64,000 nucleotides of DNA from a virus (IMGVR_UViG_3300020731_000015:1-64000), one strand, 5' to 3'. Shown: positions 35,017 through 61,195, counted from the first letter of the stretch. A program made the numbers and translations. The notes: generated from the sequence alone by a model not told the origin.

Positions 35017-35076
35017 ACAGAGATTTGGAAAGAGTGGGGTAAAGTAATGAACGAACTAACCACAAGGGAGTCGGCC

Positions 35077-36951
35077 GTGTCACAAGTGAGCATCTTTGAT
35101 GTAGTTGCTGATGTCGCTTTGGGCGACATTATTAAGAACCAGAACCTAAACGCAGATGTGCGTGAGGGTGCTGCCGACCTCTTACGAGAGGGCTACCTCA
35201 CCGCAGATGTTATGGCTGTTTCTAAGGGCGAGGGCGAAATGTCCGTTGTTCTTATTCCCAACGAGGAAGTCAAAGACGAGTCGCCAATTTGGAAAAAGTT
35301 GGCTGGCAAGGTATTTGGCGAAACCGAACTTTCGGCTGGTGCTGAACAGCGTTTGATTTCTCGCAATATCGCTAAGGGCTTGGCTTCCGTGTCACACCCC
35401 TTTGTTAAGAGCGCCAATGCCTTTGGCGGCGTTCACGCTTGCGTAGTCTGTGGCTCAACCGCCGAGACTGATGTATGTGAGCCGCTAGACAAGGCCGTAG
35501 GCTTCCCATTCTCCTTTGCCCCTAGCCCCGTAGAGCCAACTGCTGATATGAACGATGATGGCGCGGTCCAAGTCCAACTCGACCCACAGACAGTTGCCTC
35601 AATTATCGGTGCGGTTCAGACTCCCGACAACACCGATAACTCATCAAGCGAGAGCGAGAGTTCATCTTCATCAAGTAGCAGTAGTAGTTCCTCATCATCT
35701 TCTAGTAGCAGCGACTCCACCGAGGAATCATCTTCCTCAAGCAGTTCCTCTTCCTCATCATCAAGCAGTAGCAGTAGCGACAGCGAATACTCAAGTGCTG
35801 ATGACTCATCAAGTAGTTCCTCTAGTTCGAGTAGTTCCTCATCTTCCTCAAGTTCGAGCAGTTCGTCTTCTTCGTCTAGCGATGATGCGATTCTTGGCGA
35901 CAGTTGGAAAGACGGCCTTGACCCTTGGCAGGTAGAACTTGCTGAAAGCCTTGACGAAATCGTTGAGGATATCGGTCGTATCCCTACTACCGAGGCTAAC
36001 TACACCGACGTCTCTCCATACCAAGCATCCGGCCAGAACTGTAAGAACTGTATTGCTTACGATGGCGGTTGTGACTGGGTAGCCGTTCAGCCAGCCGAGG
36101 GCGGATGGTGCAAGTTCAATATTGTTCCAGTCCTTATCAAGTCTTCTGCTGAAACCGAAGCCTTTATGAAGAACCCATCGGTTTCCAAAGTAGAGAGTAT
36201 GGCTTACGGCGACTTGCCAGAGGACTCAAGCGATTCAGAAGACGAATCCTCAAACCCTTTTGGAATGAGCATTAACGCCGATGGCACTTACGGCGCGCCC
36301 ATTACCGACCCCAACTCTGCCCCTAGCCGTGACTCACTCGCTAGTGGCCCGATGCTGAAATCGCAGCCAAGTTCGGGCTCGGTTCACGTTGACTCAACTT
36401 CTTGGAACGGCAAATACGAGCCAGAGATGCCAGAGAATATGACTATTCTTGACGAGCAGATGCCAGAGCCACTCAACGAGTTTGGTGAAGTCGCAGAAGA
36501 CGAAGACGACAGTATTCCCGGCACTATCCGTAAGGATGCCGACCTGCGCTACACGCTCGGCCCTTGGTATGTTCCATACTCATCAGATGCACACGGCGAA
36601 TGGACCGACCCATCAGAACTTCAGCAAGCCCTTTGGGGTTATGTCCGTTCAGGCGACCGTGATATCCGACTCCAACACAATGTAGATATCGTTGCTGGTG
36701 AGTGGGTAGAGGCTATGACTTGGCCTTACGAAGTGACCTTGCCAATGGTTCAGGCCGGGACTGGTGCTGTTTCCAATACTAAGTTCCCCGCTGGAACCGT
36801 TTTCCTCGGCGTTCTTTGGAAGCCTTGGGCTTGGGAATTGGTGAAGCAAGGAAAGATTGGTGGCTACTCAATGGGTGGCACAGGCGCGGGCGTAGAAGTT
36901 GATATGCCAGCCCCAACCGATATTCCGACTTTCCCTGCTGTTAACAACTAA
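35077..36951 (+). CDS. XkdF-like prohead protease with poly-Ser linker
   Basis: 624 aa from the GTG at 35077, six bases after AAGGGAG; the ATG at 35047 directly abuts a TAAAGT and has no ribosome-binding site. Order: N-terminal alpha domain, a CVVC pair, an 80-residue almost pure Ser linker (189-268), a Cys cluster (NCKNCIAYDGGCDW ... GWCKF), and a C-terminal XkdF-like serine-protease domain with H534 (RLQHN), an acidic VEAM strand and S598 (GGYSMGG). Such enzymes process scaffold and capsid during head maturation. Position between portal and cargo/capsid genes fits. Confidence 0.8.
   Translation: MSQVSIFDVVADVALGDIIKNQNLNADVREGAADLLREGYLTADVMAVSKGEGEMSVVLIPNEEVKDESPIWKKLAGKVFGETELSAGAEQRLISRNIAKGLASVSHPFVKSANAFGGVHACVVCGSTAETDVCEPLDKAVGFPFSFAPSPVEPTADMNDDGAVQVQLDPQTVASIIGAVQTPDNTDNSSSESESSSSSSSSSSSSSSSSSSDSTEESSSSSSSSSSSSSSSSSDSEYSSADDSSSSSSSSSSSSSSSSSSSSSSSSSDDAILGDSWKDGLDPWQVELAESLDEIVEDIGRIPTTEANYTDVSPYQASGQNCKNCIAYDGGCDWVAVQPAEGGWCKFNIVPVLIKSSAETEAFMKNPSVSKVESMAYGDLPEDSSDSEDESSNPFGMSINADGTYGAPITDPNSAPSRDSLASGPMLKSQPSSGSVHVDSTSWNGKYEPEMPENMTILDEQMPEPLNEFGEVAEDEDDSIPGTIRKDADLRYTLGPWYVPYSSDAHGEWTDPSELQQALWGYVRSGDRDIRLQHNVDIVAGEWVEAMTWPYEVTLPMVQAGTGAVSNTKFPAGTVFLGVLWKPWAWELVKQGKIGGYSMGGTGAGVEVDMPAPTDIPTFPAVNN
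35641..35880 (+). repeat. Poly-serine coding tract
   Basis: 80 codons, nearly all Ser with a few Asp/Glu/Tyr. All six Ser codons are mixed, so the DNA itself is only weakly repetitive. Confidence 0.9.
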
Positions 36952-58312: not shown

Positions 58313-59071
58313 ATGGCTAACGAAACCAAACAGATGACTGCGGTTTCACTATTTGCGGGCGTGGGCGGTTTCGACTTAGCACTAGAGCGCAACGGAGTGA
58401 ATGTCGTAGCGGCAGTAGAAATTGACAAACACGCACAAGCAGTGTTGGCAAAGCAGTTCCCAAATACAAAACTATTCAACGATGTCACGGAGGTATCGGG
58501 TGAGCAACTTATTTCAGCAGGATTTGACCCAAGAAACGGAATCCTTGTCGGTGGATTCCCCTGCCAAGACCTTTCCGTTGCCGGAAGACGTGCAGGGCTG
58601 GCTGGAAAGAGAAGCGGCCTCTTCTACGAAGTCGCGCGCATCATCGAAGAACTCCAACCGGAGTGGTTCGTCCTCGAAAATGTCCCCGGCCTTTTATCAA
58701 GTCAGCAGGGAGCAGATATGGGAGCAGTTGTCGGAACGCTGGTTGACCTCGGGTACGGCGTCAGTTGGCGGGTGTTGGATGCTCAATACTTCGGAGTTCC
58801 CCAGCGGCGGCGTCGTGTCTTCATCGTTGGCCGACGTTCTGGAGACTGGAGAAGTACCGCAAAAGTATTATTTGAGCGCGAAAGCGTGTGCGGGGATTCT
58901 GACCAGAGCCGAGCGACGGGGGAAGAAACTACCCGAACCGCTTTTACAAGCATTGAAAGCACAAGCGGCGGATTACAAGCCGGAGTAGCAAAGGGGGGAG
59001 TGTCCGTCACAGATGAGAACACGACCAACCCTTTTACAAGTCAGGATTTGCTGAATACTCAACAGGTGTAG
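58313..59071 (+). CDS. C5-cytosine DNA methyltransferase, catalytic half
   Basis: 252 aa from the leaderless ATG. Motif I FAGVGGFD (14-21), motif IV GFPCQDLS with nucleophile C84, motif VI ENV (122-124) and motif VIII PQRRRR (163-168) are intact. It transfers a methyl group to cytosine C5. The ORF stops in the target-recognition region before motifs IX and X; these occur three times in the ORFs that follow. A C_CCT_TTT slippery heptamer at 59029-59035 would shift ribosomes -1 into the next piece (59017-59361). Active enzyme probably needs frameshifting or assembly with a separate C-terminal module. Confidence 0.9.
   Translation: MANETKQMTAVSLFAGVGGFDLALERNGVNVVAAVEIDKHAQAVLAKQFPNTKLFNDVTEVSGEQLISAGFDPRNGILVGGFPCQDLSVAGRRAGLAGKRSGLFYEVARIIEELQPEWFVLENVPGLLSSQQGADMGAVVGTLVDLGYGVSWRVLDAQYFGVPQRRRRVFIVGRRSGDWRSTAKVLFERESVCGDSDQSRATGEETTRTAFTSIESTSGGLQAGVAKGGVSVTDENTTNPFTSQDLLNTQQV
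58482..58988 (+). CDS. Overprinted ORF inside the methyltransferase
   Basis: 168 aa in another frame within the methyltransferase gene. Its segments DSPAKTFP, CWMLNTSEFPS, LADVLETGEVPQKYYLSAKA and CAGILTRAERRGKKLP resemble a recurrent phage protein family (LSDVLETGxVPxxYxLSxKACAGILRRAExRGKxLP) usually found next to DNA methyltransferase genes. The methyltransferase frame over the same bases (AKVLFERESVCGDSDQSR) is also family-typical. Either both frames are translated or one is a fossil of the other. Start not certain. Confidence 0.5.
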   Translation: MSRRYRVSNLFQQDLTQETESLSVDSPAKTFPLPEDVQGWLEREAASSTKSRASSKNSNRSGSSSKMSPAFYQVSREQIWEQLSERWLTSGTASVGGCWMLNTSEFPSGGVVSSSLADVLETGEVPQKYYLSAKACAGILTRAERRGKKLPEPLLQALKAQAADYKPE

Positions 59072-59361
59072 GCACACTACGCGCCTCATCTTCGCAAGAA
59101 GACCACATTCTTGTTGAGCAAATCGGCTTTTCCGGTAGCAACTTTAACGGTTATGCTGAAACGCCCCAAATGGCTACCCTCGTGGCGACCGATAGCAAGA
59201 GAAGCGACAAGGTAGTTGTAGAGCGCCGAGTCAACTCTATGTATGGTGAAAAGATTGCCCCTACCCTCACGGCAAGTGGCAACGACTACATCGGGCTAGG
59301 CGTTCCTATGGTTTCCGTTGATACGCAAGAGCCAGTATTCGGTGCTTTTGAGGAACTATGA
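59017..59361 (+). CDS. Methyltransferase recognition-domain piece (-1 frame)
   Basis: No good start codon of its own. It reads PFYKSGFAEYSTGVGTLRAS, then NGYAETPQMATLV and KIAPTLTASGNDY, the GTLRA/PTLTA-type repeats found in target-recognition regions of phage C5 methyltransferases. It is in the -1 frame relative to the catalytic half and joins it at the slippery site. Its TGA overlaps the ATG of the next module. An alternative is a disrupted gene. Confidence 0.6.
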   Translation, partial: EHDQPFYKSGFAEYSTGVGTLRASSSQEDHILVEQIGFSGSNFNGYAETPQMATLVATDSKRSDKVVVERRVNSMYGEKIAPTLTASGNDYIGLGVPMVSVDTQEPVFGAFEEL

Positions 59362-60410
59362 GCGAGAACGACCCAATCGTTATCCCAATCCAAGACGGTC
59401 GGGGTATGAATCAGAAGCAAAACGGATTTGGAGTTGGTGAAGAGGGCGACCCTGCTTACACACTCACAGCCGTTGGCGGTGCTTCGGTAGCCGTTGCCTT
59501 TGATGAATACAACTTCTCGATTAGCGATACTCACCACACACTTCGGGCCGGAACTCCACAATCCACTGGCGTTATCCAGCCTGTCGTATTTGAGCCGGGT
59601 GCTATGAGCCGTATTGAGGGTCACGACCCTGCTGAAATAGCCCCAACCCTACGAGCCCATATGGGAGACAATCAGTTGGCACTCTTTTACGAAGAAGAAC
59701 TACCAGCAACCCCTACGGGGAATCTAACCCCTTGGCCAGAGATGGGTCAGCCAAATATGGTTTATCGCACCGATACCGTGACTAGGACAGTCGATAACAA
59801 TCGCCACCTAATCCTCACGCAAGCGGGGCAAGAAACGCCAACTGCTGAAAACAATTCAGAGACAGGTTGCCTAACCCCTTGGCCCGAAATGCCCCAGCCC
59901 TACAGAGTTTACGGAACAGAAACGGTGACAAGAACTGTGGACAACAACCGACACAACATACTTACGACTATTCCTATTGACATCAGAAACGCAACACGAC
60001 CACCAGACGGAGAACAAGGTATGGGTATTGGCGACAACGGCGACCCCTCAACAACAATCACCACAGGCCGAGTGCCGGGTGTATTCGCAGAGGGCGAGGA
60101 ATCATTCTCGGTCTATGAGAACCAGCGTTCAGAGGTTCGTGAGCAAACGGTATTTAACGCCCTAACGCTCGGTGGCGGAAAGCCCGGTCAGGGATACCCC
60201 ACAATCAGAACTCGCTCGGTAGTTCGCCGCCTCACTCCTATCGAGTGCGAGCGCCTACAGGGATTCCCAGACGACCACACGCTTCTCCGTGCTGATGGCA
60301 AGGAACAAGCCAATGTCCATCGCTACAAGCAGATGGGTAATGCCGTTGCTGTTCCTGTTGTTGAGTGGGTAATCGCCGGAATCGTTGAGGTTCACAACAA
60401 AGATGAGTGA
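59358..60410 (+). CDS. Methyltransferase recognition plus C-terminal module 1
   Basis: 350 aa. Many GDPAYTLTA, APTLRAHMGDNQ and GGGKPGQGYPTI-type repeats (recognition region), including a duplicated stretch around LTPWPEM and TVTRTVDNNRH, then motif IX VRRLTPIECERLQGFPDDH and motif X YKQMGNAVAVPVVEW. No motif I or IV, so it cannot methylate alone. ATGA overlap with the preceding piece. Probably the main specificity and C-terminal subunit for the catalytic half. Confidence 0.82.
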   Translation: MSENDPIVIPIQDGRGMNQKQNGFGVGEEGDPAYTLTAVGGASVAVAFDEYNFSISDTHHTLRAGTPQSTGVIQPVVFEPGAMSRIEGHDPAEIAPTLRAHMGDNQLALFYEEELPATPTGNLTPWPEMGQPNMVYRTDTVTRTVDNNRHLILTQAGQETPTAENNSETGCLTPWPEMPQPYRVYGTETVTRTVDNNRHNILTTIPIDIRNATRPPDGEQGMGIGDNGDPSTTITTGRVPGVFAEGEESFSVYENQRSEVREQTVFNALTLGGGKPGQGYPTIRTRSVVRRLTPIECERLQGFPDDHTLLRADGKEQANVHRYKQMGNAVAVPVVEWVIAGIVEVHNKDE

Positions 60411-60804
60411 GAATAAAGACGAAATGGTGATGCCGACCCTATTGGCTGGTATGGGCGATTCTGCCGTAGGAACGACCCAAGATGCCTACATACTCAAGTA
60501 TCTTGCCTATTCGATTAGGGAAGATGCCAAAGCAAATACCTTTAGCGCCACACCCGTAGATGTTGCTGGCACTATTTCAGCACATCAACCAAGCGTTCAG
60601 AGCCACCACGCTCAAGTGTTCGCTATCCACCCAAAGCCACGCCGTCTTCTACCCGAAGAGTGCGAGCAACTACAAGGCTTCCCTATCGGGTGGACAGACA
60701 ACGGCCAAATTGACCGATACCGATTTAAGCAAATGGGCAACGCAGTCGCCGTGCCAGTCGTTGATTGGGTCATCAAAGGAATCGTAGATGTCCACAACCG
60801 ATAA
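60403..60804 (+). CDS. Methyltransferase C-terminal module 2
   Basis: 133 aa from the ATG overlapping module 1 by 8 bp. A short recognition part (VMPTLLAGMGDSAVGTT, AGTISAHQPSV) is followed by RRLLPEECEQLQGFPIGW (IX) and FKQMGNAVAVPVVDW (X). Second copy of the module. Confidence 0.8.
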   Translation: MSENKDEMVMPTLLAGMGDSAVGTTQDAYILKYLAYSIREDAKANTFSATPVDVAGTISAHQPSVQSHHAQVFAIHPKPRRLLPEECEQLQGFPIGWTDNGQIDRYRFKQMGNAVAVPVVDWVIKGIVDVHNR

Positions 60805-61195
60805 CGACAGTCTTTATGTGACCAATCGTAGGACTGGCGCTGTAGATGAACACAAGGGCGTTTCACCAACCTTGTTGGCGTTTATGGGAACCGGTGGCGG
60901 AAATGTTCCAATTCTCGGCGGCCAACACCCACACGCAGCCGTAGGAGAGGGCGTTTCACCAACTCTTACTGCCGCTTCAGGTGGCGGTGGCGGTCACACG
61001 CCAGTAATCGCTAGTGAACTATCGGTTCGCCGTTTGACACCAGAAGAGTGCGAAGCCCTACAAGGTTTTCCTCGTGGCTGGACAGAAATCAACTCCACCA
61101 CCAACCGATACAAGGAAATGGGAAATGCCGTAGCCGTGCCTGTGGTGAATTGGATTATTGAGGGAATCGTAAAGGTTCACAATGAGCGTAAGTAG
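60788..61195 (+). CDS. Methyltransferase C-terminal module 3
   Basis: 135 aa, 17-bp overlap with module 2. Recognition part with VSPTLLAFMGTGGGN and VSPTLTAASGGGGGHTP, then VRRLTPEECEALQGFPRGW (IX) and YKEMGNAVAVPVVNW (X). Third copy. The three modules share IX-X but differ in the recognition part, suggesting exchangeable specificity. Confidence 0.8.
   Translation: MSTTDNDSLYVTNRRTGAVDEHKGVSPTLLAFMGTGGGNVPILGGQHPHAAVGEGVSPTLTAASGGGGGHTPVIASELSVRRLTPEECEALQGFPRGWTEINSTTNRYKEMGNAVAVPVVNWIIEGIVKVHNERK

Follow-up and report, generated by a model that had tools for sequence, protein, structure and literature searches.

A phage C5 methyltransferase locus with one catalytic half and several separate specificity halves, and a second reading frame inside the catalytic gene

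The locus described here lies at positions 58313 to 61195 on the plus strand of a 64,000-nucleotide (nt) stretch of viral DNA (IMGVR_UViG_3300020731_000015; herein the window), which is the first part of a 75,270-bp virus record from a freshwater-type phage, and it encodes the parts of a C5 (cytosine-5) DNA methyltransferase. The full set of C5 motifs I, IV (PCQ), VI (ENV), VIII, IX, and X is present but is distributed over four or five open reading frames (ORFs), not placed on one polypeptide. The first ORF, the catalytic half (N-half; 58313 to 59071, 252 amino acids [aa]), carries motifs I to VIII (AVSLFAGVGG, GGFPCQDLSVAG, VLENVPG, and PQRRRRVFIVG) and the start of the variable region, and it matches positions 1 to 167 of the 324 positions of PF00145 (E value, 1.8e-57). 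The C-terminal part of this family is found only in three further plus-strand ORFs (C-halves), namely, ORF2 (59358 to 60410, 350 aa; PF00145 positions 269 to 322; E value, 1e-11), ORF3 (60403 to 60804, 133 aa; positions 252 to 322; E value, 7e-10), and ORF4 (60788 to 61195, 135 aa; positions 271 to 323; E value, 2e-12). Motifs IX and X sit jointly on each C-half, at 60222 to 60404, 60640 to 60801, and 61025 to 61189, respectively, as located with a C-half hidden Markov model (HMM). Every ORF scores above the Pfam cutoff of 22 bits, and TIGR00675 is passed by the N-half only (192 bits). ORF2 starts in an ATGA overlap, ORF2 and ORF3 overlap by 8 nt (ATGAGTGA), and ORF3 and ORF4 overlap by 17 nt; GAGG or AAAGGA precedes each C-half start, with a long spacing of ∼12 nt in the case of ORF3. 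These short overlaps appear similar to those of translationally coupled genes.

A six-frame scan of the whole 75,270-bp record returned exactly four places, the N-half, ORF2, ORF3, and ORF4. This result leaves one N-half for three C-halves and excludes chance similarity, which for the C-halves is also ruled out by the Pfam E values and by their conservation. No second N-half was detected, either elsewhere in this record or in those records of relatives that include the N-half end. The original prediction had confined motifs I to VIII to 58313 to 59071 and had placed motifs IX and X three times in consecutive overlapping ORFs with different recognition parts; the single N-half match and the three C-terminal matches bear out both statements.

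Ahead of motifs IX and X, each C-half has an N-terminal region in which a unit of the form xPTLxA...(G-rich)...V occurs once or more. The unit adjoining motif IX, the only TRD-like one placed on that domain, aligns with the target recognition domain (TRD) of M.HhaI (RGIAITLSAYGGG... opposite isptlkaregtggg), and a profile of 67 C-halves searched against PDB matched residues 215 to 320 of M.HhaI, which cover the TRD together with motifs IX and X (E value, 6e-12). Read by eye rather than calculated, TRD-like units number about seven in ORF2, about two in ORF3, two in ORF4, and three in the stretch from 59017 to 59361, with ∼14 TLxA repeats overall. The residues of motifs IX and X, including the motif X helix, are invariant across the modules. 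This invariance bears on the idea that the C-halves, instead of completing the N-half, act as decoys, regulate by binding DNA, or inhibit methyltransferases or restriction enzymes of the host. Binding to DNA or to enzymes of the host is conceivable for small C-halves, but nothing direct speaks for such a role, and a motif X helix is useful only against an N-half; we regard this explanation as very improbable.

The prediction had pointed to related phages as the place to look for the same arrangement, and the layout was found in five virus records, including the window, with three or four C-halves each. The other four are L010/L011 (3300003815, partial), L012 (3300004807, partial, with the N-half past the contig end), L013 (3300025410), and L255 (3300025387, 69.5 kb). 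All records that carry the N-half end have a single N-half, and the ratios of N-halves to C-halves were 1:3 in G001 (69.5 kb) and G003 (25 kb) and 1:4 in G004. In L013 and L255, the N-half is ∼385 aa long and contains a recognition stretch in frame, without motif IX or X, and it is followed by ORF2, ORF3, and ORF4. Each of the five records has its C-halves as separate ORFs, and because the layout recurs in these relatives, the separation of N- and C-halves is not a sequencing error.

Ratios of nonsynonymous to synonymous substitution (dN/dS) of the window relative to L013 and L012, respectively, were 0.10 and 0.06 for ORF2, 0.09 and 0.08 for ORF3, and 0.18 and saturated for ORF4, compared with 0.10 and 0.15 for the adjoining RecB-like exonuclease gene. 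These low values, close to those of the neighboring gene, indicate that all three C-halves are maintained by purifying selection, and they rule out that the C-halves are pseudogenes. Joining of the ORFs into one frame and decay of the homologues in relatives had been named in advance as outcomes that would speak against the arrangement; in the relatives, the C-halves are unjoined and intact. In a tree of the IX-X part, the C-halves of the clade form one group (support, 95/94), in which the ORF2s (94/94; orthologues in L011, L012, L013, and L255) and the ORF3s (98/98) are positional orthologues. The grouping of the clade's C-halves shows that they originated by duplication within this lineage.

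The number of modules varies between close relatives. L011 contains a fourth C-half of 114 aa between ORF2 and ORF3, and on both sides of it the window and L011 align without gaps (99.5% identity over 2,222 bp to the left and 98.5% over 1,677 bp to the right). Both flanks reach the motif X coding repeat at 60324 to 60395 (plus strand), and the alleles differ by one whole C-module. Since the 3′ end of ORF2 in the window is the 3′ end of the extra L011 module, the alleles differ by recombination inside this repeat, and the position of the junction shows that modules move as cassettes that are gained or lost as units. Smaller units vary as well: NLTPWPEM...TRTVDNNRH units of ORF2 occur twice in the window and L013 and once in L012, and ORF3 of L255 has an extra first unit that is not present in L013, though the adjoining N-half/ORF2 DNA is 95% identical. 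The anatomy of one catalytic half with three modules thus stood, and the proposed sharing of the catalytic half is supported in part, by the finding of one N-half per record, of the same arrangement in relatives, and of distinct, selectively maintained C-halves that come and go as units.

Exchange of modules and recognition repeats by recombination would also be expected if only ORF2, the first and largest C-half, paired with the N-half and if ORF3 and ORF4 were silent cassettes, serving as a recombination store for recognition parts; donor-only cassettes would still resemble C-halves. The frames of ORF3 and ORF4 are open, however, with dN/dS values of 0.08 to 0.18 at saturated synonymous divergence, their positions are kept in five records, and their own starts overlap the previous stop and have GAGG or AAAGGA upstream, which makes silent cassettes unlikely in our judgment.

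To place the layout among related enzymes, ∼170 loci were classified in a first pass with N-half and C-half HMMs; some of the loci duplicate the same contig, and the sampling favored sequences resembling the window. Fused N-C enzymes were the commonest relatives (62 loci), followed by loci with one N-half and one separate C-half (51, including those of cluster J mycobacteriophages), and in 8 loci, motif IX lay in another frame while motif X stayed with the N-half. Three or more C-halves were found in the window clade only. Among 80 loci from bacterial genomes, ∼20 were one-N-one-C splits and none had multiple C-halves. Outside the window clade, one contig (L122/L056) has a fused N-C gene followed by a separate extra C-half that starts at the stop codon (L122, 6004 to 7655); in the IX-X tree, this is a second, independent duplication of the specificity half. 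We rejected multiple C-halves as a general feature, given that among several hundred loci they were limited to the window clade and L122/L056, with 0 of the 80 bacterial-genome loci. N/C splitting is thus common in phages, and several C-halves per N-half are rare. The novelty claimed for phage C5 enzymes has to be narrowed accordingly in that a split between motifs VIII and IX is known from M.AquI (PMC3404938) and widespread among the classified loci, but several C-halves per N-half are unusual, and our search of a literature library found no description of C5 enzymes with one catalytic and several specificity subunits.

The stretch between the N-half and ORF2 (ORF1b; 59017 to 59361, plus strand) lies in the −1 frame relative to the N-half and carries its three TRD-like repeats without motifs IX and X. 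In L013 and L255, the N-half and ORF1b form one continuous frame, and the dN/dS values of ORF1b are 0.16 relative to L013 and 0.13 relative to L012. The window and L011 have one base fewer than L013 and L255 just after CCCTTTT (59029 to 59035), and the N-half thus ends at 59071. This frame break and the abundance of fused relatives would suit a single multispecific, multi-TRD gene of the SPR or phi3T type that was broken by mutation or assembly errors, with the extra C-halves as decaying duplicates. However, four or five independent records and ∼50 one-N-one-C loci all retain the separation of the N-part from the C-part, the three IX-X copies are too divergent to be assembly duplicates, and selection keeps every C-half; a broken gene or assembly artifact is already largely refuted, and we consider it quite improbable.

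The heptamer C CCT TTT at 59029 to 59035 (plus strand) is in the phase of the N-half and is a possible −1 frameshift site; it is the sole in-phase heptamer in the 55-nt zone (59017 to 59071) where a −1 shift would restore the long form. A predicted RNA structure (∼59045 to 59124) begins 9 nt 3′ of the heptamer, with z scores of −3.4 and −3.0, the second-lowest value among 64 windows placed across the locus. This structure is not conserved in L013 or L255, in which the frame is intact, and for this reason we keep as a hypothesis only that a programmed −1 frameshift might yield short and long N-subunits.

We think it likely that the locus encodes a split C5 methyltransferase of the M.AquI type whose C-subunit was tandemly duplicated, such that one catalytic subunit would serve several specificity subunits. 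In this proposed mechanism, an orphan phage C5 enzyme is divided after motif VIII and ahead of motifs IX-X; the genes around the locus showed no restriction gene. The catalytic subunit (58313 to 59071) would provide S-adenosylmethionine binding and catalysis, and the three C-subunits, presumably cotranslated, would each bring recognition domains and motifs IX and X, including the motif X helix that is normally packed beside motif I. The common N-subunit could then be completed by any of the C-subunits. At least three forms of the enzyme would result, differing in their 5-methylcytosine (5mC) targets, of which each form probably has several, and the most likely purpose would be evasion of host restriction. 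In this account, the C-subunits stem from tandem duplication within the lineage and are swapped, gained, and lost via recombination in the repeated motif X DNA.

Several points weigh against this interpretation. When modeled alone with AlphaFold, a C-half had a mean predicted local distance difference test (pLDDT) score of 63 and was mostly disordered, with the exception of the motif X helix (94 to 96 in the last two blocks); disorder of a lone C-half would be expected if it folds on the N-half, and so proves nothing. The overall confidence of the ORF4 model was low. The ORF4 group is weakly supported in the IX-X tree. The five records come from metagenomes, some being fragments, and repeat handling during assembly could in principle affect the near-identical window/L011 pair. 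Lastly, the N-half of the window and L011 could be partly degraded, because the recognition extension that its relatives carry in frame is missing from it.

Beyond ORF1b and the four C-halves of L011, a third feature was absent from the original prediction, namely, an overprinted ORF of 162 aa inside the catalytic half (58500 to 58988, plus strand), in the +1 frame relative to the N-half. This frame is open from 58422 to 58988, its likely start is the GTG at 58500, which has a GGAGG Shine-Dalgarno sequence, and the product has a conserved C-terminal helical segment, SSLADVLE...KYYLSAKACAGILTRAERRGKKLPEPLLQAL. Between the window and L013, substitutions at N-half codon positions 1, 2, and 3 numbered 1, 0, and 13 before the overlap and 33, 12, and 33 within it; the corresponding numbers relative to L255 were 5, 0, and 21 and 31, 13, and 29. 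At synonymous sites, the N-half has diverged half as much as its neighbors (pS, 0.30 versus ∼0.63). Across 79 nonredundant phage N-halves, the open length of the +1 frame averaged 165 codons, compared with 82 after synonymous-codon shuffling (P ≤ 0.01 in 55 of the 79), and the +2 frame of the same N-halves gave no signal. In 57 of the 58 loci that had no part in building it, a profile of the +1 protein scored higher than every one of 50 shuffles (99.6 versus 34.4 bits), phage P1 dmt being one of these loci (113 versus 24). A start codon with a Shine-Dalgarno sequence was present close to the expected position in 91 of 119 loci, whereas 37.7 such loci would be expected. The C-terminal 50 residues are predicted with high confidence to be helical, and the C-terminal blocks of the AlphaFold model reach a pLDDT of ∼96 at low overall confidence. 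The overprinted ORF extends into motif IX in L111, L114, L118, L120, L135, and L138, where motif X remains in the catalytic frame, and it is fused to a complete C-half in L086 (2202 to 3176) and L123 (5993 to 7300).

The phase-shifted substitutions, the open +1 frame, the shuffle tests, the enrichment of starts with Shine-Dalgarno sequences, the helical C terminus, and the continuations into motif IX or a C-half together indicate that the overprinted ORF encodes a genuine additional protein of these enzymes, which may be an assembly factor or a beta subunit. Proteins of this kind are contained in phrog_16143 and phrog_1008 of PHROGs, with the label DNA methyltransferase. No free-standing, nonoverlapping version was found: each of the five annotated phage matches that were looked at, from P1 and from Aeromonas, Enterobacter, Ruminococcus, and Pectobacterium phages, is placed in the +1 frame of a methylase gene. 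Our search of a literature library did not find the overprinted ORF described as a general feature of phage methylases, and it is a more general surprise than the multiple C-halves. In P1 dmt (L169, AF234172), the overprinted ORF spans 2246 to 2734, with 163 open codons and the sequence ...SQVLEQTSIPQRYFLSSKACAGILRRGEKRRKSLPPLLQMAL, but the annotation of P1 has no gene for it. In L007 (3504 to 4121) and L008 (3496 to 4113), the N-half of Schatzie and Thibault is interrupted by an inserted HNH endonuclease element, and the tail of the overprinted ORF, downstream of this element, is annotated in Thibault as gp104, a hypothetical protein.

A broader reading, which we regard as possible rather than probable, is that of a combinatorial locus in which the catalytic polypeptide, with its overprinted partner and a possible −1-frameshifted recognition array, would be common to three or four exchangeable specificity polypeptides, giving many 5mC targets from less than 3 kb, and in which phage C5 methyltransferases in general, P1 dmt included, would be accompanied by the overprinted protein without its being annotated. 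Elsewhere in the window, near the portal gene, a 634-aa ORF (35047 to 36951) has a C terminus that matches PHROGs with the disagreeing labels RNA ligase, DNA methyltransferase, and head maturation protease.

M.AquI, the closest precedent for the split, is part of a restriction-modification system. It carries motifs I to VIII on a large subunit and the rest, with motifs IX and X, on a separate small subunit (PMC3404938). The window locus has the same split point and the same separation of motifs I to VIII from IX-X, but unlike M.AquI, with its single alpha-beta pair and one small subunit, it has three to four C-halves per large subunit in this clade, each with several TRD-like repeats. M.EcoHK31I and artificially split M.HhaI (209/210) and M.SssI show that halves of this kind assemble into active enzyme (PMC3404938, PMC3439449), the working M.HhaI split being 1-209 plus 210-326 (PMC3439449), a position to which the split point of the window also corresponds.

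The closest isolated relatives are cluster J (Omegavirus) mycobacteriophages, in which NihilNomen gp123/124 and Lucky2013 gp113/114 have N-halves that are 62.6% and 53.8% identical, respectively. As in the window, their methylases have a separate C-half ORF and a RecB-like exonuclease gene nearby; unlike in the window, there is one C-half only, and HNH elements are inserted in some. M.EcoHK31I shares with the window a second coding frame inside the catalytic gene, its beta gene lying in another frame inside the alpha gene. The smaller of its two polypeptides carries motif IX (PMC3404938), whereas the overprinted ORF of the window lacks motif IX, and motifs IX and X are in downstream ORFs. The M.EcoHK31I layout, with motif IX on the second polypeptide and motif X kept with motifs I to VIII, is instead that of L111, L114, L118, L120, L135, and L138, and in view of the overprinted ORF, M.EcoHK31I beta looks like a conspicuous example of a second protein widely encoded within phage C5 methyltransferases.

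Phage C5 enzymes that have multiple TRDs and recognize more than one target sequence have been described (PMC8936443 and references 45 and 56 to 59 therein). The multispecific Bacillus phage enzymes SPR, phi3T, H2, and M.(phi)BssHII are, as is proposed for the window locus, phage-borne orphan C5 enzymes with several recognition domains per locus (PMC8936443), but they are single polypeptides with tandem TRDs, whereas here the TRD-like repeats are on separate polypeptides, each with its own motifs IX and X. Type I systems consist of unrelated proteins that methylate adenine, and the locus has no homology to HsdM, HsdS, or HsdR; the likeness to Type I S subunits is an analogy of working, exchangeable specificity subunits on a common catalytic subunit, and not one of membership. 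If the C-halves are indeed interchangeable, the phage would have uncoupled catalysis from specificity in C5 methyltransferases, as bacteria do with Type I S subunits. The locus would then be a toolkit, made by nature, of split 5mC enzymes that can be retargeted, and it would allow a phage to keep up quickly with host restriction repertoires.

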